Positions 20,470 through 46,484 of a DNA stretch of 64,000 nucleotides are shown in pieces. Below the pieces are notes generated by a model, which saw nothing but the letters and a program-made list of their open reading frames with translations, had not been told where the DNA came from and searched no databases. Each line of letters begins with the position of its first letter. The first letter of the stretch is position 1. Source of the DNA: Moniliella sp. 'wahieum' (lineage: Eukaryota; Basidiomycota; Moniliellomycetes; Moniliellales; Moniliellaceae). The DNA is taken from assembly GCA_003971905.1 (NCBI GenBank), contig RSEE01000052.1:310001-374000 (forward strand), written 5' to 3'. A program made the translations under genes and the position numbers.

Positions 20470-23031
20470 CTACATCTGCACGGGACTCACCAGGCTCTTC
20501 ATAAACGAGTGCAAGGTCCGTCCGGCGTCGGGGCCCCACTGCGGCGACAAGGTTAGTTCTCGTTTGGCCAAGCCAAAAGTTAAGGTCGGAGGGAGCAGCA
20601 CGTACCTCACCCTGCGACACCTCGTCACAGCACCGTTCAAACTCGCGCGACTCGGCGACAGCGGGCCAATTGTCGTACACAAACCGTTTAACCCATCATG
20701 CAGCGAGGCAAAGAAGCGCGTGGCCAAGAATACGCGGAATGCTGTGCTGGGCGTAAGGTGGTGCAGTACATGTTGCTCGGCGGCGGAGAGCAAACGCGCT
20801 TCCCCATACCGATGCGCCAGGCGGTACATTGTCAGTGCCGAAGCAGGCGGCGGCAGAGGAGGCGCACACGGATGGGCATGAGGGTCCGCTTGCCTTCCGG
20901 TTCCTATGACCGAGGCTGACCCGCCCCACTCTGGCTCCGGCGTCCAGCGGCACTCCTCTTCCGATGGCCCATCCAGGTCACTCGCCGTGGGAGGGGAAGA
21001 CACTTCCCACTCGTAGGGCATGGCATCAGTATACTTGCTCACCCACTCCAGTGCTTCAACCGGGGTCCAATCTACCAGGAAGCTGCCTTGCGCCCCGTCC
21101 AGCGCAGGTCCTAGCGCCAGGCAGTGATCCACGTTGCCACAATCCTTGGCCTCTTCCGTAGGGGTAAACTCGACGTGTTCGACGTACAAGTAGCGCAAAA
21201 GCCAGTACATGGTCGCATAGTCGGCATCCACCACATGCAGCTCGTGCACCCCACGGCTGCCACCTTCGCCTTCGGCAAATGCACTGTCCAACATGGTCGC
21301 AAAGTACTTGGAGCGAGCTTTGAGGATGGCGCTGTGGGCCCAGATCACCCGGTCCCGCACCACCAGTACCGCTTCAGCTTCTCCCTCCATCGGAGCAGCG
21401 GGGCGCTCGTTGCCGAGAGGATAGGGAAGAACTACAGTCTCCTCCACCTTGGGCAGAGGGAGCTGGGCGGACCATTCCTGGGGCACCGTGTCGGTCTCGT
21501 CCGCCGGGTAGGAGGGTTCGGAAGGTTCGGCGGCCGCTTTGGCGCGCTGCCGGACCTCCGTCTGTAAGCGCGCACTTTGTCGTGCACTCCATCCCAGGGG
21601 GAGGTAGGCGACACCGCGCTCGCGCGTGCGGATGCACACGTCGCCCGAACGCGGACAATCTAGCAGACTGCCCAGCGCATCCAGAATGGTTGGCGCGACA
21701 TAGCGCGTGTCGGGTTGCGGGAACAGCACTGCGCCCGGGCCATGCTCCGGCGGGCGCCGCACCGGCACCCGTGACGATATTGATGGTGAGTGCCACAGCG
21801 TCTTGGCGTCGCACGTCGGGATGCTCCAACAGTTTCGACAGCGGCGGGATTTCGTGGCAGGCAAAGTACTCGGCCTCGTGACTAAAGGTGAAGGTGTGAA
21901 ACGATTGGTGCAGGTAAGGCGAGGGATCGAGGACGCCGCTCCGCCGCTCTGGGAGGGCAGCGCCGACAGCGGCCGGACCCCACCATGATGGATGCTGTCA
22001 CCGGACCAACGGGCCGGGTGGGGACGGGAACGGTGGAGGGCTTGCGTTTGAGTGCAGGAAGAGGCTTTTCCAAGTCGCAGTTGGTCAGGTAGACGCTCAG
22101 CGTGGTGACTGTCTTGCGCTTTGGTGCTTGGTGGGGGATCGTTTGGGTCGGAACGCGCTGGCGCTCATGAACCCGGGCGCAGGGATGGGAATGGAACTGT
22201 GAGTGTCGTGCCCGCGTGGCTCAGAGATGACCGTCTGACGCCGCACCAGCTCCAGCTTCCACTGTCCATCACCAAAGACGGGCTCGGTGGACCAGACTTC
22301 GCTCCGCCCGGCTCCAGCCGACACAGATCGGGTGATGCCATCGGCATCGTGCTCGGACGACAGCGCTGACGGGCCGTCGCCCTCCTCCTCTGACTCGACC
22401 GAAGGCGACGAGCTGGAGGGCGTCGCATCGACCCCGGCCCCCGGGGCGGAAGAATGCTACCTCGTCCCGCAACAGCGCCACATCACTGATCACCCACGTA
22501 AACGACACTGCCTTGGTCTCTTCAAATTTGGTGGCCCGCTGCCCGGGGGCAGCAGGCGCGTGTTCGGGTGTTGGGTTGGGGGCAGCTCGTGCCATGCTCA
22601 GACTCGAGTGGCGCGAGTGACGCAGCGCGCTGGGTGGCACGGGGACGGGGGGAAGTCCCAGGGGGCAAAGCTAGATGCTGAGCTGGCCCGCGACGGGCCA
22701 GGGGGGGAAGCGGACGCATTGAACCCCGAGACGGATTGCGGGCGAAGCGACGAGCCTGGCCAGCGGCGCGGACTGCCGACGGAGCCGAGGGGGTTGGAAC
22801 GGCTGTATAACGGACGTGCGGAATGGGGAGTCGGCGTGGCTCCTCGTCCGGGAGAGACTGTCGACGGTTGGGCAGGGGCAGGGGCGGTGGCCAAGGCAGG
22901 GGAGCCCAGGGTGGCGGGCCAGACGCAGGTGCGGAGGAGGGAGGGACGGGAGTGCTGGGCGGGTGGGCAGTGGAGGAGGAGGAGGGCGTGGGCGTGGAGG
23001 CGGAAGTGCTGGACGACGGGACGGCGCTCAT
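20470..23031 (-). CDS. MATH-BTB/POZ protein, likely Cullin-3 adaptor
   Basis: MATH-BTB proteins bind substrate through MATH and Cullin-3 through BTB. ATG at 23031 opens a Ser/Pro-rich N-terminus. MATH strands follow: FEETKAVSFTWVISDVALL, EVWSTEPVFGDGQWKLEL, and the closing part with FTFSHEAEYFACHEIPPLSK and DAVALTINIV. The BTB core is at about 21415-21130 (AVLVVRDRVIWAHSAILKAR, KYFATMLDSAF, ATMYWLLRYLYVEHVEF). A BACK-like end has TMYRLAHRYGEARLLSAAEQ and, after a one-base shift near 20690, WVKRFVYDNWPAVAES. An intron at 20539-20605 (67 nt; donor GTACGT, branch ACTAAC) joins to WGPDAGRTLHSFMKSL and the stop TAG at 20472-20470. Loops inside BTB and before BACK are unusually long. Several frameshifts break the MATH part. 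The Cullin role is inferred from the family. Confidence 0.8.
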
Positions 23032-33179: not shown

Positions 33180-35883
33180 TCACGCCGTACTCGCCTCGCT
33201 GCTTCCGTCCTCAACTTCAAGGGAGGTGCTGGCCAGGGTGGGCAGGCCATGCACAAAGCCATCCAGGACAAGGCGAGGAGGTCCGCTGGCTCTGGGCGAG
33301 GGTTTGGAGCTCGTACTGTTCCTGTGCGTGAGCTTGGAAATCAAGCTGCGCAGGGTTGGACGAAGAAAGAGGATAGGAGGTATGGGCCGCTCCACCAGCC
33401 TGATAGCCCGCGACGTTGCTCTCGCCCTCCGACGTAGCCGATCGATTCGACTTCGAGCGTGGGGCCAGGCGGGTTGGTTGCCCTGGGCCCAGTCCCCGTA
33501 CCGGATGGGAGACGTGCATGGGCGCCGCTGCGTCGGGGCGGGAAGGCTCCTGGGGCCCACCCATGCACAGGCACATACTCCTTATCCAACGTACAGTCGA
33601 GCTGGGCCAGCGCTGTTGTAGGAACGTTATCTGCGCCTCCTGGGACGCAGGGACGGTCGGGCCAAAACAGAGCCGGCGCAAGAGTACGGGCCAACTGGGC
33701 GGGAGAGACACCAGACAAACGGATTGCGTCCTGAAGTGTGAAGAGTTGAAGGAAGCTGATGAGGAAGAGCAAAACTCTTCGTGACAAGGTCGGCAAGGAT
33801 GCCACGACGCGGTTCAAGACGCGGGGAAGAGGTAACTTGCTCCGTCATCCGGTGGAAGCAAGGCGGGTGTCAGCTCAGCCAGATAGGCAAGCAGCACAGC
33901 TCCCGGCAGGCGCGGGTCAGATGGCAAGCCAGCCAAAGTACGTCCCCCGATCGATGCGGACCGCAACTCCACTTGCTCTTGGGGCGGGGGCCGGGCCACA
34001 TACCTTTGGGTGCGGGGCATCGAGAGCAAGCATAGCGTCAGCACAGAAGGAGAGCACAACAGGGACCTGTGCCCTCGGGTAGATTGTGCTTGGGTCATGG
34101 CTGCCTCAAGGCTGAGCCCAAAGACACAAGGGTTAAAGGGGCTTTCCAAGGCAGCGACAATTGCGTCCATACTGGGGGCGTGGGCTCGGGGGCCATGGTA
34201 GGCGCGGCGGCCAGGCGCGCTTACAGGCACTCATTACGGTCCGCATTGCTGTTCCTTCGAGGGGGGGGGGAGGCTGCTCACCTGTCCCTCAATCCACACT
34301 TCCATCGGACGCTGTAACGCGGCAGAAGGCGGGAAACCAGTGATCAGCAACACATTGAGCATCTGCCATGCCCGGAAGGCAGAATCGGTGGAAGGATTGT
34401 GAGTGAGCTGCTTGATGAGTTGGACAAACTACCCAGCAAAGTTAGAAGGGCCTTAAACATAGCAACGCAAGGGGCAGAGGGCGTACCACTTCGTCTCTCA
34501 ACCCTTTGTTGGCAAGGCGGTCTCCACCAACCAACAGAGCTCATCGAGGAGGCTAGCCTGGGCGCCGAGCACGCCTGCGGTTCGGTCCCCGCAGACGCGC
34601 AGAATAATCTTAAACATGGTGTTCGCCTCGCGAACTTGGTGTCGGGGTGTAGACTCCAACAGCGGGGCAACAATGGGCTCGCGCTGCCACGCTCTAAGCT
34701 GGTCCAGCGGGATCTTACGACGCAAGCGGAAGAGACCAGACGCTGTTCTGAAAACGTTTGAGCTGCATAGACCGCCCAGGGAGTAGGGGTCGTAGAAAGA
34801 GAAGGTGAGGACCGCGCCGGGACAGGCGAGGTACCTTGCTGGGTGCGCGGAGCATCGCACTGGTGATCTGAGCAGCAAAGCTGATGGGTTCGATGGAGGC
34901 GCTCGGGGCTCCCGAATGCGAGGCGGGGTGAGTACGCGCGGGAGCGGACGCTCGAGGCCGGTTCTTAGTTCGGCGCCCTTGTGGAGGGCCCGGAGGGGAG
35001 GTGGACCGGTGCGAGTGGGGTCGGGCGGGCAACCCGCTCGGCCGAGGCAGGAAAGAGGAAGGCTGGGAGGAAGAGAGCGTCGAAGGCGGTTGCACACTGT
35101 CCGACCTGGGGACCAGCAACGACGTATGCGAGTCCACCACCAGATGGTCAGGCAGGTGGGCAACTTCCTGAATAGCAGTCATTGGGATGACCAGGCCCCT
35201 GGGCCGGTCCCACTGCGTCACGCTCGACTCGGAGTTGTGGTAGTACGGCCGGCCGCGGTGGGGGTCAAAGAATTCAAGCCAGGCACCGTCCGGCGGTGGG
35301 GGCAGGACAAGTGTGCCACTCGGCACTTCCCAGCGGCACTCACCCGTGTGTGGGTTGGCAAAGAAGGGTTCTCCCGTGGTTGGATCAGTGATGACCGCCC
35401 AAAAATAGGCCCCCCAGGCCATGGGCTGTGGCGACCCGTGTGGGTCCCGGACATGCAAAGGCGTACGACCAGAGGGGCACAATCGGGCTTGTCAGCATCG
35501 GCAGGTTCAGCAGGCTCGGCAGGCCGGCGGGCAGAAGACGAGGGCTGGCTCTGGCTGCGGCGGGGAGGGGAGGAGCGCTCTGCGCCCTGGACCCTATCCG
35601 ACAGGAGAGAGGAGCGGGAGACACGGGCGGCATAGGCGAAGGTGAACGGTTCGTCATCCGACGTGGTGGGATAAGGGAGATGATGGAGGCCAGAGGAGGC
35701 AGTGCGCGTGCCGGTGCGGTGGCCAGTACTCTCTGTGCCCAGGTCGAAGAGGAAGGTACCGGCACTGGTGCCGGTGCTGGTGAGGCTGCTGCGCGGGCGA
35801 TCGGAGCGGCTGGAGGGGGAGCCTCCGGACGCGGGGCTGGGGGGGCTGGTCCACTCGACGTGGTCCGAGGCGGAGGAGGGCAT
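33180..35883 (-). CDS. WW-WW-MyTH4-RhoGAP protein
   Basis: The predicted role is a GTPase-activating protein for a Rho-family GTPase, linking WW ligands to the cytoskeleton. ATG at 35883 gives MPSSASDHVEWTS and a Ser-rich disordered region. The first WW-like domain is WAVITDPTTGEPFFANPHTG..WEVP and the second, canonical one WLEFFDPHRGRPYYHNSES..WDRP. MyTH4 follows: TMFKIILRVCGDR, LLDELCWLVETALPTKGLRDEV, then across an intron at 34429-34486 (58 nt) FVQLIKQLTHNPS, FRAWQMLNVLLITGFPPS and MEVWIEGQ. RhoGAP begins CVFGLSLEAAMTQAQ and continues SDPRLPGAVLLAYLAEL and VSPAQLARTLAPALFWPD. The arginine-finger segment (usually GIFR) is not recognisable where expected, around 33970-34020, but the frame is broken there. 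The tail is low complexity. The 5' end could extend to an ATG at 36100 in another frame. Confidence 0.82.
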
Positions 35884-36877: not shown

Positions 36878-39800
36878 CTACTGGGAGCGCGGGGAGGGGA
36901 GGAGAGGATCAAAGGTGGTGCGGGTGTGGGTGGAAGAAGAGTCGCACGGAAGTGGATCAGAACTGACGCTGGCGAGCATTGAAAACCCGTCCATCTTGGT
37001 TGCGTCCCTCTCTTCGTCCCATGTGCCTGCGTGAAGGTCGTTTCGCCCTCGCTTGATTATCGGGTCCTCCTCCTCGGCGAGCGAAGTGGCAACAGGAAGG
37101 GTCATCAACAGCTCTTGCAGATCCTCCTCTTCCAGTGGGGCAGGAGAAGAGGCTTTCTCCTGGTTCTCAGCCCAAATCGGTAAGGTCTTGAGCCGGCGCG
37201 AATACGTCGTCTGCACCTCTTGCCGCAGCTTCTTGTTCAGCAAACGGAGCCGTTGGAGTTCATATGGCCAGCTGGAAGAGCAATGTGGATCAAACTCGGG
37301 TAGCACATTCGAAGGCAGCTCCGTACCTGTAGGAAGTGGAAGGGCGTGGTATTGAACACACTGCTGTCCTCACTCAAGCCGAGTCGGGGTGGGAACCACG
37401 AATGTGAACCCAGACGCTCGTTGCGCCCGCAGAGGGGTAGACTTGCGACAGTACGGTCACCTTCCGCCCCAGTCGATCGAGCAGGCCGTGCTGAACCACC
37501 GACTGCTCTCCATGTTGGAGGGCGGCGAGGAGCCCAGCCCTGGGGCCGGGAACCAGGTCCTTGACCGACTTGCCCATCAATTGACCGGACTCAGTCTCAG
37601 AAAATGTATCACCGGAGCAGTTACAGCCAAGAGGAGGCCGGTTTGTTTGGACAGGCGCATCCAGAACCCTGGCTCGGAGGAGGAAGTGACCCGACTCAAT
37701 GCCTGAGGTGGTACATGCTCAATCTCCCGTGGTCGACCGGAGAGAATGACGACTTTCATTTTGCCCGTCTCCATGTGAACTCGGCCGACAGACTCGATCC
37801 ACTTAAAGTCCGACTCTCCGTACTTTCATTCGGAATAGCAAATGGACTTCCTTGGAAGTCATGCTCGAAGATGTGGCGTCCTTTAGCTGGCGAAAGACCG
37901 GAACCACATCGGCGGGGTGCATATAGTTTCCGATCGACTTGCCGCTCAGTTCCACGTGGCTCCATCCCGTCTGACGCTCGATGCGTGGGGAGAGGTAGAA
38001 GAAGAATGCCTTTGATTGAAAGGACAAAAAGAACGTCTGGCGTGTTCTCCACCACCACGCGAGACCAATGTTCCTGCTTGACCGAGGGGAGTGCCTCTTC
38101 TTCTGGATACAGCATCTGCACCACCGAGCGACCGTTGATCACCGCCCATGGGTCCACTAGTTGACTTGCCCATTCAAACGGGTTTACTTCCGTTGGCCGC
38201 ACAACGCTCGCCACCGATTGGGGCTCTGTTTGAGAGGGAGAGGCGCCTCTCAAGCAAGGGTGCGAGGGAAGATGCGAGAGAGTACTGGCTTCCTTGCTCT
38301 CTAGTATGCCATTCTCCCCTTGAGCCAAGAGAGGGACTTGGAAGCCTACCACGTATTTGACCCCGGTACCCCCCTCCCATGGGATGGGGACAGCGTGACC
38401 AAATTGAGAAACGGAGCACCGCCTTTACGGTAGTTGATCAAACTTGCTGGCACTCCTCCAGCTTCATCAGGTGGTGGGAGAGATGGACGACAGCACAGGG
38501 GTCGGTGGTGGTGCGGACCTCGCCCTTGTTCATCAGCCCATTGGGTGCCTGGAGGAAGCGCGCATTCTTCCCGATCACTTCGTGACGCTCGTAGCCCGTC
38601 AAGTGGAGGAAGGAGTCGCTGCAATACACAATTGGATGGTCTGGCAGCGTCACGTCCGCCACCGTAAACGCCGCTGAAAGACGGACGGGACCCAAGTCGA
38701 TCACCGGATGGCGGCGAGAGGCGACCTCTAACAGTGCGTTCAACGGATCGAATGCACCGCTCCCGCCTCCACCCTCAGTCCCATTTGCAATTCCAGCTTC
38801 CTGCTTGGGCCCCGTCTCCATTCCCATTCTCATCCCCATCTTCGGATCTGTATCCGTCTCGATCTCCGCCCCTTTCCATTCCCAGTCCCCGGCAGAGTTC
38901 CTATACCACGAGGCAACGAGTATGCCTCGGTCGGTACACCTTTCCTGGTCAACCCACCGTTAAAGAGGGGCGGGCGAATGGAGACGTAATCCGACGGAGT
39001 GGGGATCAAGGTACTGTGTGCCGAACTTGCTCCGTCAGTAAGAGACCAGACGTTGGTGGTGCTGGAACTGGACGCGCGGCTGAGGTACGGCCGCCGGAAG
39101 GAGGTCCAGGTACTGTGCAAGTCAAAGTTCGTCCATCGATCGGAGGTTCATTCGTCGGGCGGAACGGGGCGCTCGCTCTGCCATCCAGGCGAAGGGGGTG
39201 GGTACTTGAGAGGCGCAATGGACGGATTGGTAGATCCGAACGAACTGGACAGTGGATGGGGAATGCCCCGCGGCCGAGCCTCCTGGTCGTTACTTGAGGT
39301 GCGGGTTTGGAGAGAATGCCGGAGATTGCCCCGTGCCTCGCGCAGACGTGCCATCCTCCGTCGTTCTTGCAGTGTCATCTTGGGAGCAGCATCGCTTGTA
39401 AGGAGAGGCAGCATGTCGTCGAGGCTAGGATCCCGGTTGGAGGACGAGGAGGACGAGGAGGGCAATGTCCAGCTGATGGTTGGCTCGCTCATAGGAGCAC
39501 AATCACCGAGCAAGGCGCCCACCCTATCTTTCTTCTGGTTGCGCCCGTCGTGTGAGTTGAGGTGGGACATGTGGTGTGCAAAAATTTGGGCGTGGTAGCC
39601 TGCTTCTCTCTGGGGGGAGGTGGAGCCGGAGACGCGAACAGGGGAGGCGGCAAATGGAGCAGACGAACTGGCTAGTGTGCCAGTGGGATTGGCAGTGTTA
39701 GGTACAAGATTATCGGTGGGATGAAGTACGGGGAAAAGCATGCTGGCATTGGCTCTGTTGGGTGCTGGTTCGAGTGGTTCGAGTGGTTCGAGTGGAACAG

Positions 39801-43050: not shown

Positions 43051-43684
43051 CCTTATTGTCAAACTACGACCGGCGACAATCCTCATCGATCATCACAGTA
43101 GTCTAGCACATAGTGAAATCCCAGTCGCGACTTTCCCGCAGACGTAATGAGGCGACTCGGTGTGTATATATGGCCACCGTCACAGTAAGGAAGGGAGAAG
43201 ACCATGTCGACAGTGATGGTCCGATTCGGAGTGAGGAGCCCGGAAGAGGTAGGACAGTGCCTCCCTGCTACTATCTGTAGTGAGGTTCAGGCATTCCGTT
43301 CAGGCTGGATTAGCTGGTTAGGTGAAGATGGAAGGAAGGGCGAACGTGTTGAACGTTTTGAACGGGCCATGGGCACCGGCCAATGCACCGACGCACTCAG
43401 CTCAGGCGTAGGAATTCACTACGTCATCGATTCATGGGGTCATGATTATTGCTTGCAATAATTCGATTGGTATTTAAACTTGCTGCTTGAAGCTTGACAC
43501 GGCCGCTGTCGTATGGCATGTGGCATGTGCATGTGACTGCTGGTGACGGGGCCTCTGCCCTCGGTTAGCTTATCTCTTCGCTCTCCCCGCCGCAGACCAC
43601 AAGGCAAACCATTTTGCATTGGTCAAATTGATCCGACACGCTGGAATTGGCTCCATCCCCCCCCCACCACTTGCGTCTATCACC
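43051..43684. other. AMD1 upstream region
   Basis: No gene is seen. A TGTATATA TATA-like word lies at about 43161-43168, GAACGTTTTGAACG is near 43350, and a CT/C-rich leader ends at the AMD1 start. Confidence 0.45.
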
Positions 43685-46484
43685 ATGTACGCTGCTGTCC
43701 TTTCGGGCGATGCAACGCCAGGCGACGTGACCCCCACGCGAGAAACGCCATCGGCCCCGTGGACCATGCCAGGTGCTGCATCCCCACCCGATGAGGACAG
43801 TTTCCCTGAGCTGTCCAGCTCCGCCGCAAGCGCCCATTCTCATGCAGCCATGATGCTGTCTCACCTGTCCCCTCAGGAGAGAAACCGAGACTTGGAGATG
43901 AGTGTCGAAGGCCCTGTTCCGGCCCCTCACTTGTTTGGCCATCAAAGCGCCCCCACCCGCCACCTGTTGGAAGAAGAACTCGCCGAGAATAACTACGACA
44001 ACGAGGTGGCAGACGAACATTGGGGCATGAGTCGCTCGTCGTATTCCCTTGTCGGGGGTGAGAAGGACGAAGAAGGGGACAATTATGAACCTTCTGTCAG
44101 TTCCTCTAAAGACGGGAAAGGCGAGTTTGCAGCGTCTCCTGCGGATGCGGCTGCTCGCCTAGCCAGCTTAGGCACAGGCGCGGCCGACGGCCACTCCTCC
44201 GTCCCTGCCCCTATTTCGTCGGAACTGGCGGAGCTCTACACCAGCTTACAACAGTGCCTCGAGCTTCGGGACAAGTATATGCTGGCTTCTCATCAGGCTC
44301 ACTGGGAGGAGAATCCAAAGAATTGGGACGCTGAATATGTGGAGGAATTCAATGCCCAGCCAGGGGCGGGCAAGGCCAACCAGGACTACAAGAAGGAGAA
44401 AGAAGTATATGTTGATGGTTGTTCTCTTGCGTACTCGCCCGATGACGATTATTGGTCCGACGGCTCCGGGGACAAGCCCGCTCTCAAACCGTGGAGAATC
44501 TATCCCGCCCCACCCCGACCTCACTGGGAAAACTTCCACCCTGCTCCAGCTTCCTCCTTTGTTGTTCGTCCCACAGCGGTCAATCCCCTTCCTCCCGCCA
44601 TCGCTCCCGCTTCCCCGGCCAACGCCAACGCCGCGAGCCAGCTACTCACTGCCACTGGTAGCGTACCTGGCAAGTTCGACATGAAGTTCATGCGCTTCCC
44701 TACCAAGCACACCCGCCAAGGAAGGCCGATTACATTCCGAAGGGTGGACGGGGTATTCCAGGTGTTTGATGAACAGGCTCCCGAGTCGGTCGGCAAGGAG
44801 GCCAAACCACTTTTTGCAGCGATCACCATGCGGCAATACTACAAGGATCTGGATTTTCTCTTAAACATTGTTGCGGATGGTCCAACCCGCTCTTTTGCTT
44901 GGCGCAGGCTCAAGTACCTTGAAGCCAAGTGGAACTTGTACACTCTCTTGAACGAGTATCGCGAGTTGGATGGGATGAAGAAAGTTCCCCACCGTGACTT
45001 CTACAATGTGCGCAAGGTCGACACGCATATTCACCACTCAGCCTCGATGAACCAGAAGCACCTACTCCGGTTCATCAAAGCCAAGATCAAGCGTCATCCG
45101 GACGATGTGGTCATCTTCCGTGATGGTCACAAACTCACTTTGGAACAAGTGTTCGAGTCGCTTGGTCTGACGGCGTACGATCTTTCGATTGACACTTTGG
45201 ACATGCATGCCCACCAGGACGCTTTCCACCGCTTTGACAAATTCAACCTCAAGTACAACCCCCTCGGCGAGTCGCGTCTTCGTGAGATCTTTCTCAAAAC
45301 CGACAACTTGATTCATGGCCGCTACCTTGCGGAGATCACCAAGGAGCTAATGGCGGATCTCGAGGCCTCCAAGTATCAGATGACAGAATACCGCCTCTCC
45401 ATTTATGGCCGCAACAAGGAGGAATGGAACAAACTTGCTGCCTGGGTTGTGGACAATGATCTGTTTTCCCCAAATGTGCGTTGGCTAATCCAAGTCCCAC
45501 GCTTGTATGATGTCTACAAGGCCAACGGGACGGTGGACAACTTTGATGATGTGATCGACAGTATGTGCCCATCTGAATTCTTGGGAACGTTCACGAAACC
45601 TGACTGGGATTTCTACAGATGTCTTTGGGCCGCTTTGAGGCGACACATGACCCCTCTGCTTACCCCAAGTTGCATGTCTTTCTCCAACGTGTGGTCGGGT
45701 TTGATTTGGTTGATGATGAGTCCAAGCCGGAGCGCAGGGTCCATAACAAGTTCCCCGTCCGTCGGAGTGGGACGGACTGTCCTCTCCGCCATACTCCTAC
45801 TGGGCCTACTTTATGTACGCCAACATCTCCACCCTCAACCAGTGGCGCCACATGCGTGGGTATAGTACGTTTTGCGTTCCCCTTTTTTGCGTCGACCGTG
45901 TCAAGTACTGACGGCGAGCAGATACGTTTGTACTGCGCCCCCATGCTGGGGAGGCGGGCGACCCGGACCACTTGGCCGCGACCTTCCTGACCTCACAATC
46001 GATTTCGCATGGCATCCAGCTGCGCAAGGTACCGACGCTACAGTACCTCTACTACCTCAAGCAAATTGGGTTGGCCATGTCGCCGCTGTCGAACAATGCG
46101 TTGTTCCTCTCGTACGAACGGAACCCGTTCCCCACTTTCCTCAAGCTGGGGATGAACGTGTCCCTGTCGACGGACGACCCATTGCAGTTCCATCTATCCA
46201 AAGAGCCGTTGCTGGAAGAGTACAGCGTCGCAACGCAGATTTACAAACTGCGTGCGTCGGACATGTGCGAGTTGGCGCGCAACTCAGTGCTGCAGTCGGG
46301 CTGGGAGATGGAGATCAAACGTCATTGGTTGGGCAACAAGTTTTACCTCCCAGGCCCACGCGGGAACGTGGTGTCCAAATCCAACATCCCATCCATTCGC
46401 CTCCGCTTCCGCGAACAAACGTTGCGCGAGGAACTGGATTTGGTCTGGTCGTCGGGACACGACGTTACCCAAGCCCGGCACTAA
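43685..46484 (+). CDS. AMD1: AMP deaminase
   Basis: This cytosolic enzyme hydrolyses AMP to IMP and ammonia in purine-nucleotide balance. The start [13 protein letters not shown] leads an acidic, Ser-rich N-terminus, then [12 protein letters not shown]. Catalytic-domain motifs are [20 protein letters not shown] (metal-binding H-x-H), [77 protein letters not shown] and [11 protein letters not shown] (metal Asp pair). Introns are 45561-45618 (58 nt; donor GTATGT, branch CTGAC) and 45865-45921 (57 nt; donor GTACGT, branch ACTGAC). Both restore conserved sequence across the junction. Two apparent frameshifts lie at about 45632 and between 45740 and 45780. Spliced length is about 895 residues, typical for fungal AMPD with its variable N-terminus. 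The stop is TAA at 46482-46484. Confidence 0.97.

Follow-up and report, generated by a model that had tools for sequence, protein, structure and literature searches.

One of the eight White Collar-1 (WC-1) paralogues of the basidiomycete Moniliella sp. 'wahieum' encodes a LOV domain in which the photo-adduct cysteine is replaced by alanine, and among the 136 LOV domains aligned here only the two copies of this gene lack that residue. The gene lies on the minus strand of a stretch of 64,000 nucleotides (contig RSEE01000052.1, positions 310,001 to 374,000), which we call the window. Contig C84 bears a second copy of the gene, 94% identical in DNA across 3.2 kb. The sequences that flank the gene match C84 collinearly on both sides, at 98% and 94% identity. 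Since both flanks match in the same order, we take C84 to be the other haplotype or a homoeologue of the region. Because the adduct cysteine is alanine, the LOV domain of this paralogue cannot form a cysteinyl-flavin adduct.

The minus-strand LOV core reads GKNARFLQAP, with alanine at the adduct cysteine position. The loss of the cysteine claimed in the first-pass annotation is thereby confirmed: GKNARFLQ stands where photoreceptors have GxNCRFLQ, the codon at 38563-38561 is GCG, and alanine fills the cysteine position in both copies. The minus-strand open frame 38839-38438 contains HLTGYERHEVIGKNARFLQAPNG and encodes HLTGYERHEVIGKNARFLQAPNGL, including the alanine-bearing motif; 133 residues of open frame surround the alanine codon (Table 1). 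The same annotation had the frame continuous on both sides of the motif. This holds only to about 38438, and the remainder of the domain, with INYRKGGAPFLNLV and YVVGFQ, follows in other frames. A joined LOV reading of 142 amino acids, stitched across these frame breaks, matches the solved LOV structures of ENVOY (E 5.5e-28) and Vivid (E 2.4e-27; 139 residues), and the unjoined LOV open reading frame (ORF) matches Vivid with E 2.4e-19. The proposed white-collar identity stands with these ENVOY and Vivid matches, and the domain is of the WC-1 type.

Table 1. Features of the WC-1-type gene in the window
Feature	Position	Strand	Basis or remark
WC-1-type gene, about 1,045 codons	36878..40014	-	Frame broken by scattered indels in the assembly
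Open frame, N-terminal part of the LOV domain including GKNARFLQ	38438..38839	-	ORF; Pfam PAS_9 above cut-off
LOV domain (AFDPLNALL ... VVGFQV)	38335..38755	-	At least three frame segments; ends approximate
Alanine codon GCG, at the adduct-forming cysteine position of LOV photoreceptors	38561..38563	-	Codon readout; C84 likewise GCG
ASLINYRKGGAPFLNLVT, flavin-pocket strands of the LOV domain, another frame	38394..38447	-	
PAS-B, second PAS region, short internal loop	37730..38075	-	Aligned to paralogue P0001; boundaries approximate
PAS-C, third PAS-like region (EPGFWMRLSKQTGLLLAVTAPVIHFLRLS ... VWVHIR)	37395..37675	-	Aligned to P0001; boundaries approximate
C-terminal ORF (SSSWPYELQRLRLLNKKLRQEVQ...), without GATA zinc finger	36878..37306	-	ORF; no Pfam match

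Alignment to related WC-1 proteins, the comparison suggested by the first-pass annotation, bears the substitution out. The LOV alignment held 136 domains, 16 from this genome and 120 from public proteins. The public set was the best 120 of 1,278 matches (7,996 scored candidates) to paralogue C2. Apart from the window pair, all 134 domains have cysteine at the adduct position (14 of the genome's own copies and all 120 public domains, a set drawn with a cysteine-bearing query and so not an unbiased sample), and both domains of the pair have alanine there. With cysteine in every other domain examined, the alanine lies beyond ordinary variation. Three of the 120 public matches lack a plain NCRFLQ (they read GRNCRFMQ, GRSCRFLQ and GKNCLFLQ), and all three have the cysteine.

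The rest of the domain was compared at the 46 LOV columns with 95% or more invariance across the 120 homologs. The window copy departs at five of the 46 (G1A, D25R, C28A, C65A and D142P) and C84 at three of 44 (G1A, C28A and C65A), two columns being unreadable in that copy. C65A is the adduct cysteine, and it is the sole invariant-column departure between LOV residues 30 and 140. Within that span the domain resembles Cys-less LOV domains, with the near-invariant pocket residues kept, including the glutamine near the LOV end (residue 140), which none of the 136 aligned domains lacks. Four further departures lie at residues 1, 25, 28 and 142. The statement that the other flavin-pocket residues are intact therefore stands between residues 30 and 140, while a second cysteine, at residue 28, is also alanine. 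C28A is common to the copies on C37, C92, C9, C18 and C15 (C26 is unreadable there) and to two of the 120 public proteins. We take this position to be that of Vivid Cys71, a signal-path residue. Since its pocket residues are kept, the window LOV domain probably still binds flavin. Set against its sister copy C15, the window copy differs at 36 of 92 variable columns and at 5 of 46 invariant ones (3 of 44 for C84), as against 0 to 2 of 46 in three other paralogue pairs; C15 itself has four departures from the consensus at invariant columns.

The assembly comprises 69.5 Mb in 223 contigs. A search of it with the window LOV domain gave 21 matches, which merged by contig into at least 16 loci. The 16 WC-1-type loci form eight pairs, each 93-97% identical in DNA: C2/C50, C9/C18, C15/C26, C37/C92, C52/C84 (the window pair), C106/C96, C107/C81 and C129/C14. 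The adduct cysteine is kept in the seven other pairs (14 copies), although in some copies, such as C96, frameshift-tolerant alignment has to bridge an indel to show it. Since seven WC-1 paralogues keep the cysteine, the organism need not be blind. Eight WC-1-type genes are a large number for one fungus. Several WC-1 genes have been reported in some fungi (PMC11105155). No fungus with eight was found in the literature on multiple WC-1 genes drawn on here, which falls short of proving that none exists.

The tree had 47 rows, the 16 own copies and 31 of the best 120 public matches. The own copies fall into two groups, each with support 100/100, and the fork that unites both is weaker (88/84). Four paralogues make up the first group (C52/C84, C15/C26, C37/C92 and C9/C18). 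The other four make up the second, in which the public proteins P0002 and P0003 also fall; these two are 70% identical to each other, and P0002 matches the window LOV query with 125 bits (E 3e-31) and eight 5-residue words in common. The window pair is thus nested in a clade of the genome's own WC-1 paralogues, where it is sister to the cysteine-bearing C15/C26 (100/99; stems 0.98 and 0.82). The genome as a whole has a large White Collar family of two groups of four, each gene in two near-identical copies. Among the matches listed, the named best public matches of paralogue C2 are mostly from what we take to be Ustilaginomycotina.

The ends of the window gene were inferred from the first ATG (40014-40012) and a TAG (36880-36878). 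The gene can be aligned without any intron, and paralogue C2 is a single stop-free frame of 999 residues. The layout is that of WC-1, with a LOV domain like those of VVD and ENVOY followed by PAS-B and PAS-C regions that align to P0001, a paralogue that carries PAS_9 and PAS_3. The PAS-B loop between its flanking motifs spans 16-17 residues in the window pair versus 35-135 in the other own copies (13 of 14 measurable). The loop pattern matched 20 of the 136 sequences (13 of the 14 other own copies, the window pair and 5 of the 120 public proteins), and the comparison was limited to own copies. The related paralogues L010 and L011 and their partners L020 and L019 (C37, C9, C92 and C18) have low-complexity PAS-B loops of more than 100 residues; unlike these expanded forms, the window copy has almost no loop. 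The broken ORF that holds part of PAS-B in the window gave no Pfam match. None of the 34 GATA zinc finger matches in the genome lies on C52 or C84. Such absence is usual in basidiomycete WC-1, U. maydis Wco1 included (PMC4831468), so it leaves membership in the basidiomycete WC-1 subgroup possible.

U. maydis Wco1 (um03180) is like the window gene in its LOV-PAS-PAS layout as well as in the missing finger, and its motif is GKNCRFLQ (PMC4831468). The window gene differs from it in having alanine for the adduct cysteine and a shortened PAS-B loop, and in being one of eight paralogues. U. maydis, among whose relatives the public WC-1 matches fall, also has a second wc-1 homologue, um02052, that is not counted as a photoreceptor (PMC4831468). 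The same text describes um02052 as being without the typical LOV hallmark, whereas the window LOV domain misses only the motif cysteine. A white-collar protein without its adduct cysteine is also at hand in Botrytis BcWCL1 C414S, a yeast-tested point mutant with serine where the window paralogue has alanine. This mutant bound BcWCL2 in all yeast conditions, more weakly and mainly through its PAS domains, and lost its blue-light response (PMC9144814).

Outside the WC-1 family, Vivid C108A and YF1 C62A carry the same cysteine-to-alanine change and have a LOV pocket that is intact in other respects, and both keep a light response through flavin photoreduction to the neutral semiquinone (PMC4682037). 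These two are engineered and were tested in the laboratory, whereas the window LOV domain is natural and known from sequence alone. Natural Cys-less LOV-like proteins make up about 70 GenBank entries, with alanine among the replacements (PMC4682037), and it is possible that a fungal WC-1 is already among them. Halobacterial BAT-LOV is one natural case that, like the window domain, has lost the adduct cysteine and kept the other LOV residues (PMC4682037). It differs in its proline replacement, in having no FAD insertion and in its architecture. The general point that Cys-less LOV domains elsewhere signal by flavin photoreduction or redox change, made when the domain was first annotated, is thus borne out by VVD, YF1 and the natural cases (PMC4682037).

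The reading that we favour, and consider just probable, is that of a selectively maintained, Cys-less WC-1 paralogue that acts as an adduct-independent partner in white-collar complexes. Its LOV domain has alanine for the photo-adduct cysteine and very probably still binds flavin. The protein would then serve as an adduct-independent PAS partner, either constitutive in the dark or dependent on the state of the flavin, with its later PAS regions predicted to pair with WC-2-type GATA proteins. In this way it would tune or counterbalance the genome's seven WC-1 paralogues that bear the cysteine. A survey of fingers at 27 loci, which account for 28 of the genome's 34 GATA matches, found the form DSPEWRKGPLGPKTLCNACGLRWAK at three loci (L051, L054 and L055, on contigs C47, C32 and C39), which we take to be of the WC-2 type. 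The WC-2 side of the genome may be duplicated too. A partner role is supported by these fingers and by three PAS regions that align to a WC-1 paralogue; adduct-independent action is favoured because BcWCL1 C414S keeps WC-2 binding and Cys-less LOV domains have precedents. The shortened PAS-B loop could weaken partner binding. For the window paralogue we infer flavin binding, complex formation, loss of the normal light response and a regulatory role.

Loss of the cysteine does not prove light-blindness, because VVD C108A still signals light through photoreduction (PMC4682037). The main rival builds on such chemistry. Here the domain would be a photoreduction or redox sensor, in which light or cellular reductants convert the flavin to the neutral semiquinone, and protonation at N5 flips the conserved glutamine, giving signalling without an adduct. 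We regard this as a tentative possibility, on the unlikely side. That glutamine is indeed present, the pocket is otherwise kept across residues 30-140, and the cysteine-to-alanine forms of VVD and YF1 still signal. Natural Cys-less LOV domains, moreover, respond to chemical reduction or photoreduction (PMC4682037), and in a Cys-less LOV protein conserved tyrosine or tryptophan is able to donate electrons (PMC5645311). Against this, aerobic photoreduction is often slow or dependent on strong light (PMC5645311; for BAT-LOV, PMC4682037), and the closest test, the Cys-to-Ser change in a fungal WC-1, lost the light response (PMC9144814). The sequence also holds nothing specific to redox control. 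It is a shade more doubtful that an adduct-free WC-1, duplicated from a photoreceptor, relies on bound flavin for redox sensing or weak photoreduction sensing within white-collar complexes. The partner and sensor readings share their firm part, a WC-1 paralogue, alike in two copies, without the ability to form an adduct.

Both readings presuppose a working gene, and a decaying duplicate is the alternative. On that account the paralogue lost its cysteine after the expansion to eight genes and is now drifting as a pseudogene. Its long branch, lost PAS-B loop and two lost cysteines would suit such a history. We compared the two copies in 40 ungapped blocks, of which the 21 with a frame judged clear made up the main dN/dS set and all 40 the second. 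From the LOV domain to the end, the 21 blocks show 12 nonsynonymous changes against 26 synonymous ones (dN/dS 0.143, binomial p 1.3e-8), with 3, 8 and 27 changes at codon positions 1, 2 and 3, so that third positions predominate. All 40 blocks give 32 synonymous and 16 nonsynonymous changes (dN/dS 0.153, p 6.3e-10), and no in-frame stop occurs in them. The N-terminal part is less constrained (dN/dS 0.291 in the chosen blocks; 0.505, p 0.026, in all blocks). A cruder dN/dS from stitched alignments is 0.274 for C52/C84, within the 0.053-0.515 of the seven cysteine-bearing pairs. This purifying selection argues against decay, and we take the window gene to be selectively maintained from the LOV domain onward.

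The broken frames speak less clearly. In alignment to a distant reference the C52 and C84 copies have 13 and 18 frame breaks, and six of the cysteine-bearing pairs have one copy with 0-5, which would fit decay. The cysteine-bearing sister pair C15/C26 is equally badly broken (15 and 26). The 21 blocks are separated by 20 junctions: at 15 of these a single copy shifts frame, at 4 both copies do, and at 1 there is no shift. Shifts in both copies are what decay would lead one to expect, but each of those four junctions reaches across an omitted block that brings additional gaps. Gap events between the copies number 14.2 per kb in C52/C84, an ordinary rate against 6.3-23.8 in the seven other pairs. 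Because the rates in other pairs span that of C52/C84, the indels belong to the assembly as a whole, and gene models built from it will often be broken. Gap events between the copies of WC-1 pairs are mostly single bases, many of them in runs. On selection and indel rates together the pseudogene reading is disfavoured, and we consider it improbable.

An assembly artefact, in which compensating indels turned a cysteine codon into GCG, would suit so indel-rich an assembly, and the first-pass annotation was reasonable to raise it, given that C96, one copy of another WC-1 paralogue, has an indel inside the same LOV motif; we reject it as very improbable, because the collinear C84 copy also has GCG amid different synonymous neighbours (AAC-GCG-CGG versus AAT-GCG-CGC in the window), so that both copies would have had to acquire matching compensating errors, and the frame is open throughout the 133 residues around the codon.

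Other features lie around the gene. An AMP deaminase ORF (window 43619-45865, plus strand) is in a stretch that is copied on C84 (160432-162924, 98%) and on C24 (339042-341532, 79%). The C24 copy stems from a duplication older than the near-identical pair, and that event perhaps fed the WC-1 family too. An ORF with WW domain matches lies beside the WC-1 gene (34715-35482, minus strand), and an ORF with a BTB/POZ domain lies at 20470-21864 (minus strand).

No natural White Collar-1 with only its adduct cysteine replaced was found in the mostly open-access literature covered. Natural Cys-less LOV domains are already known; what is new here, relative to that literature, is a White Collar-1 in which the adduct cysteine has become alanine. 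It offers a natural case in which a Cys-less member of a eukaryotic regulator family and close cysteine-bearing sisters occur in one genome. Comparison of the sister proteins would make the part played by the adduct separable from that played by the flavin. If the Cys-less member were a redox sensor, it would represent a natural reversal within one gene family, a light-driven LOV switch having become a redox switch based on flavin.
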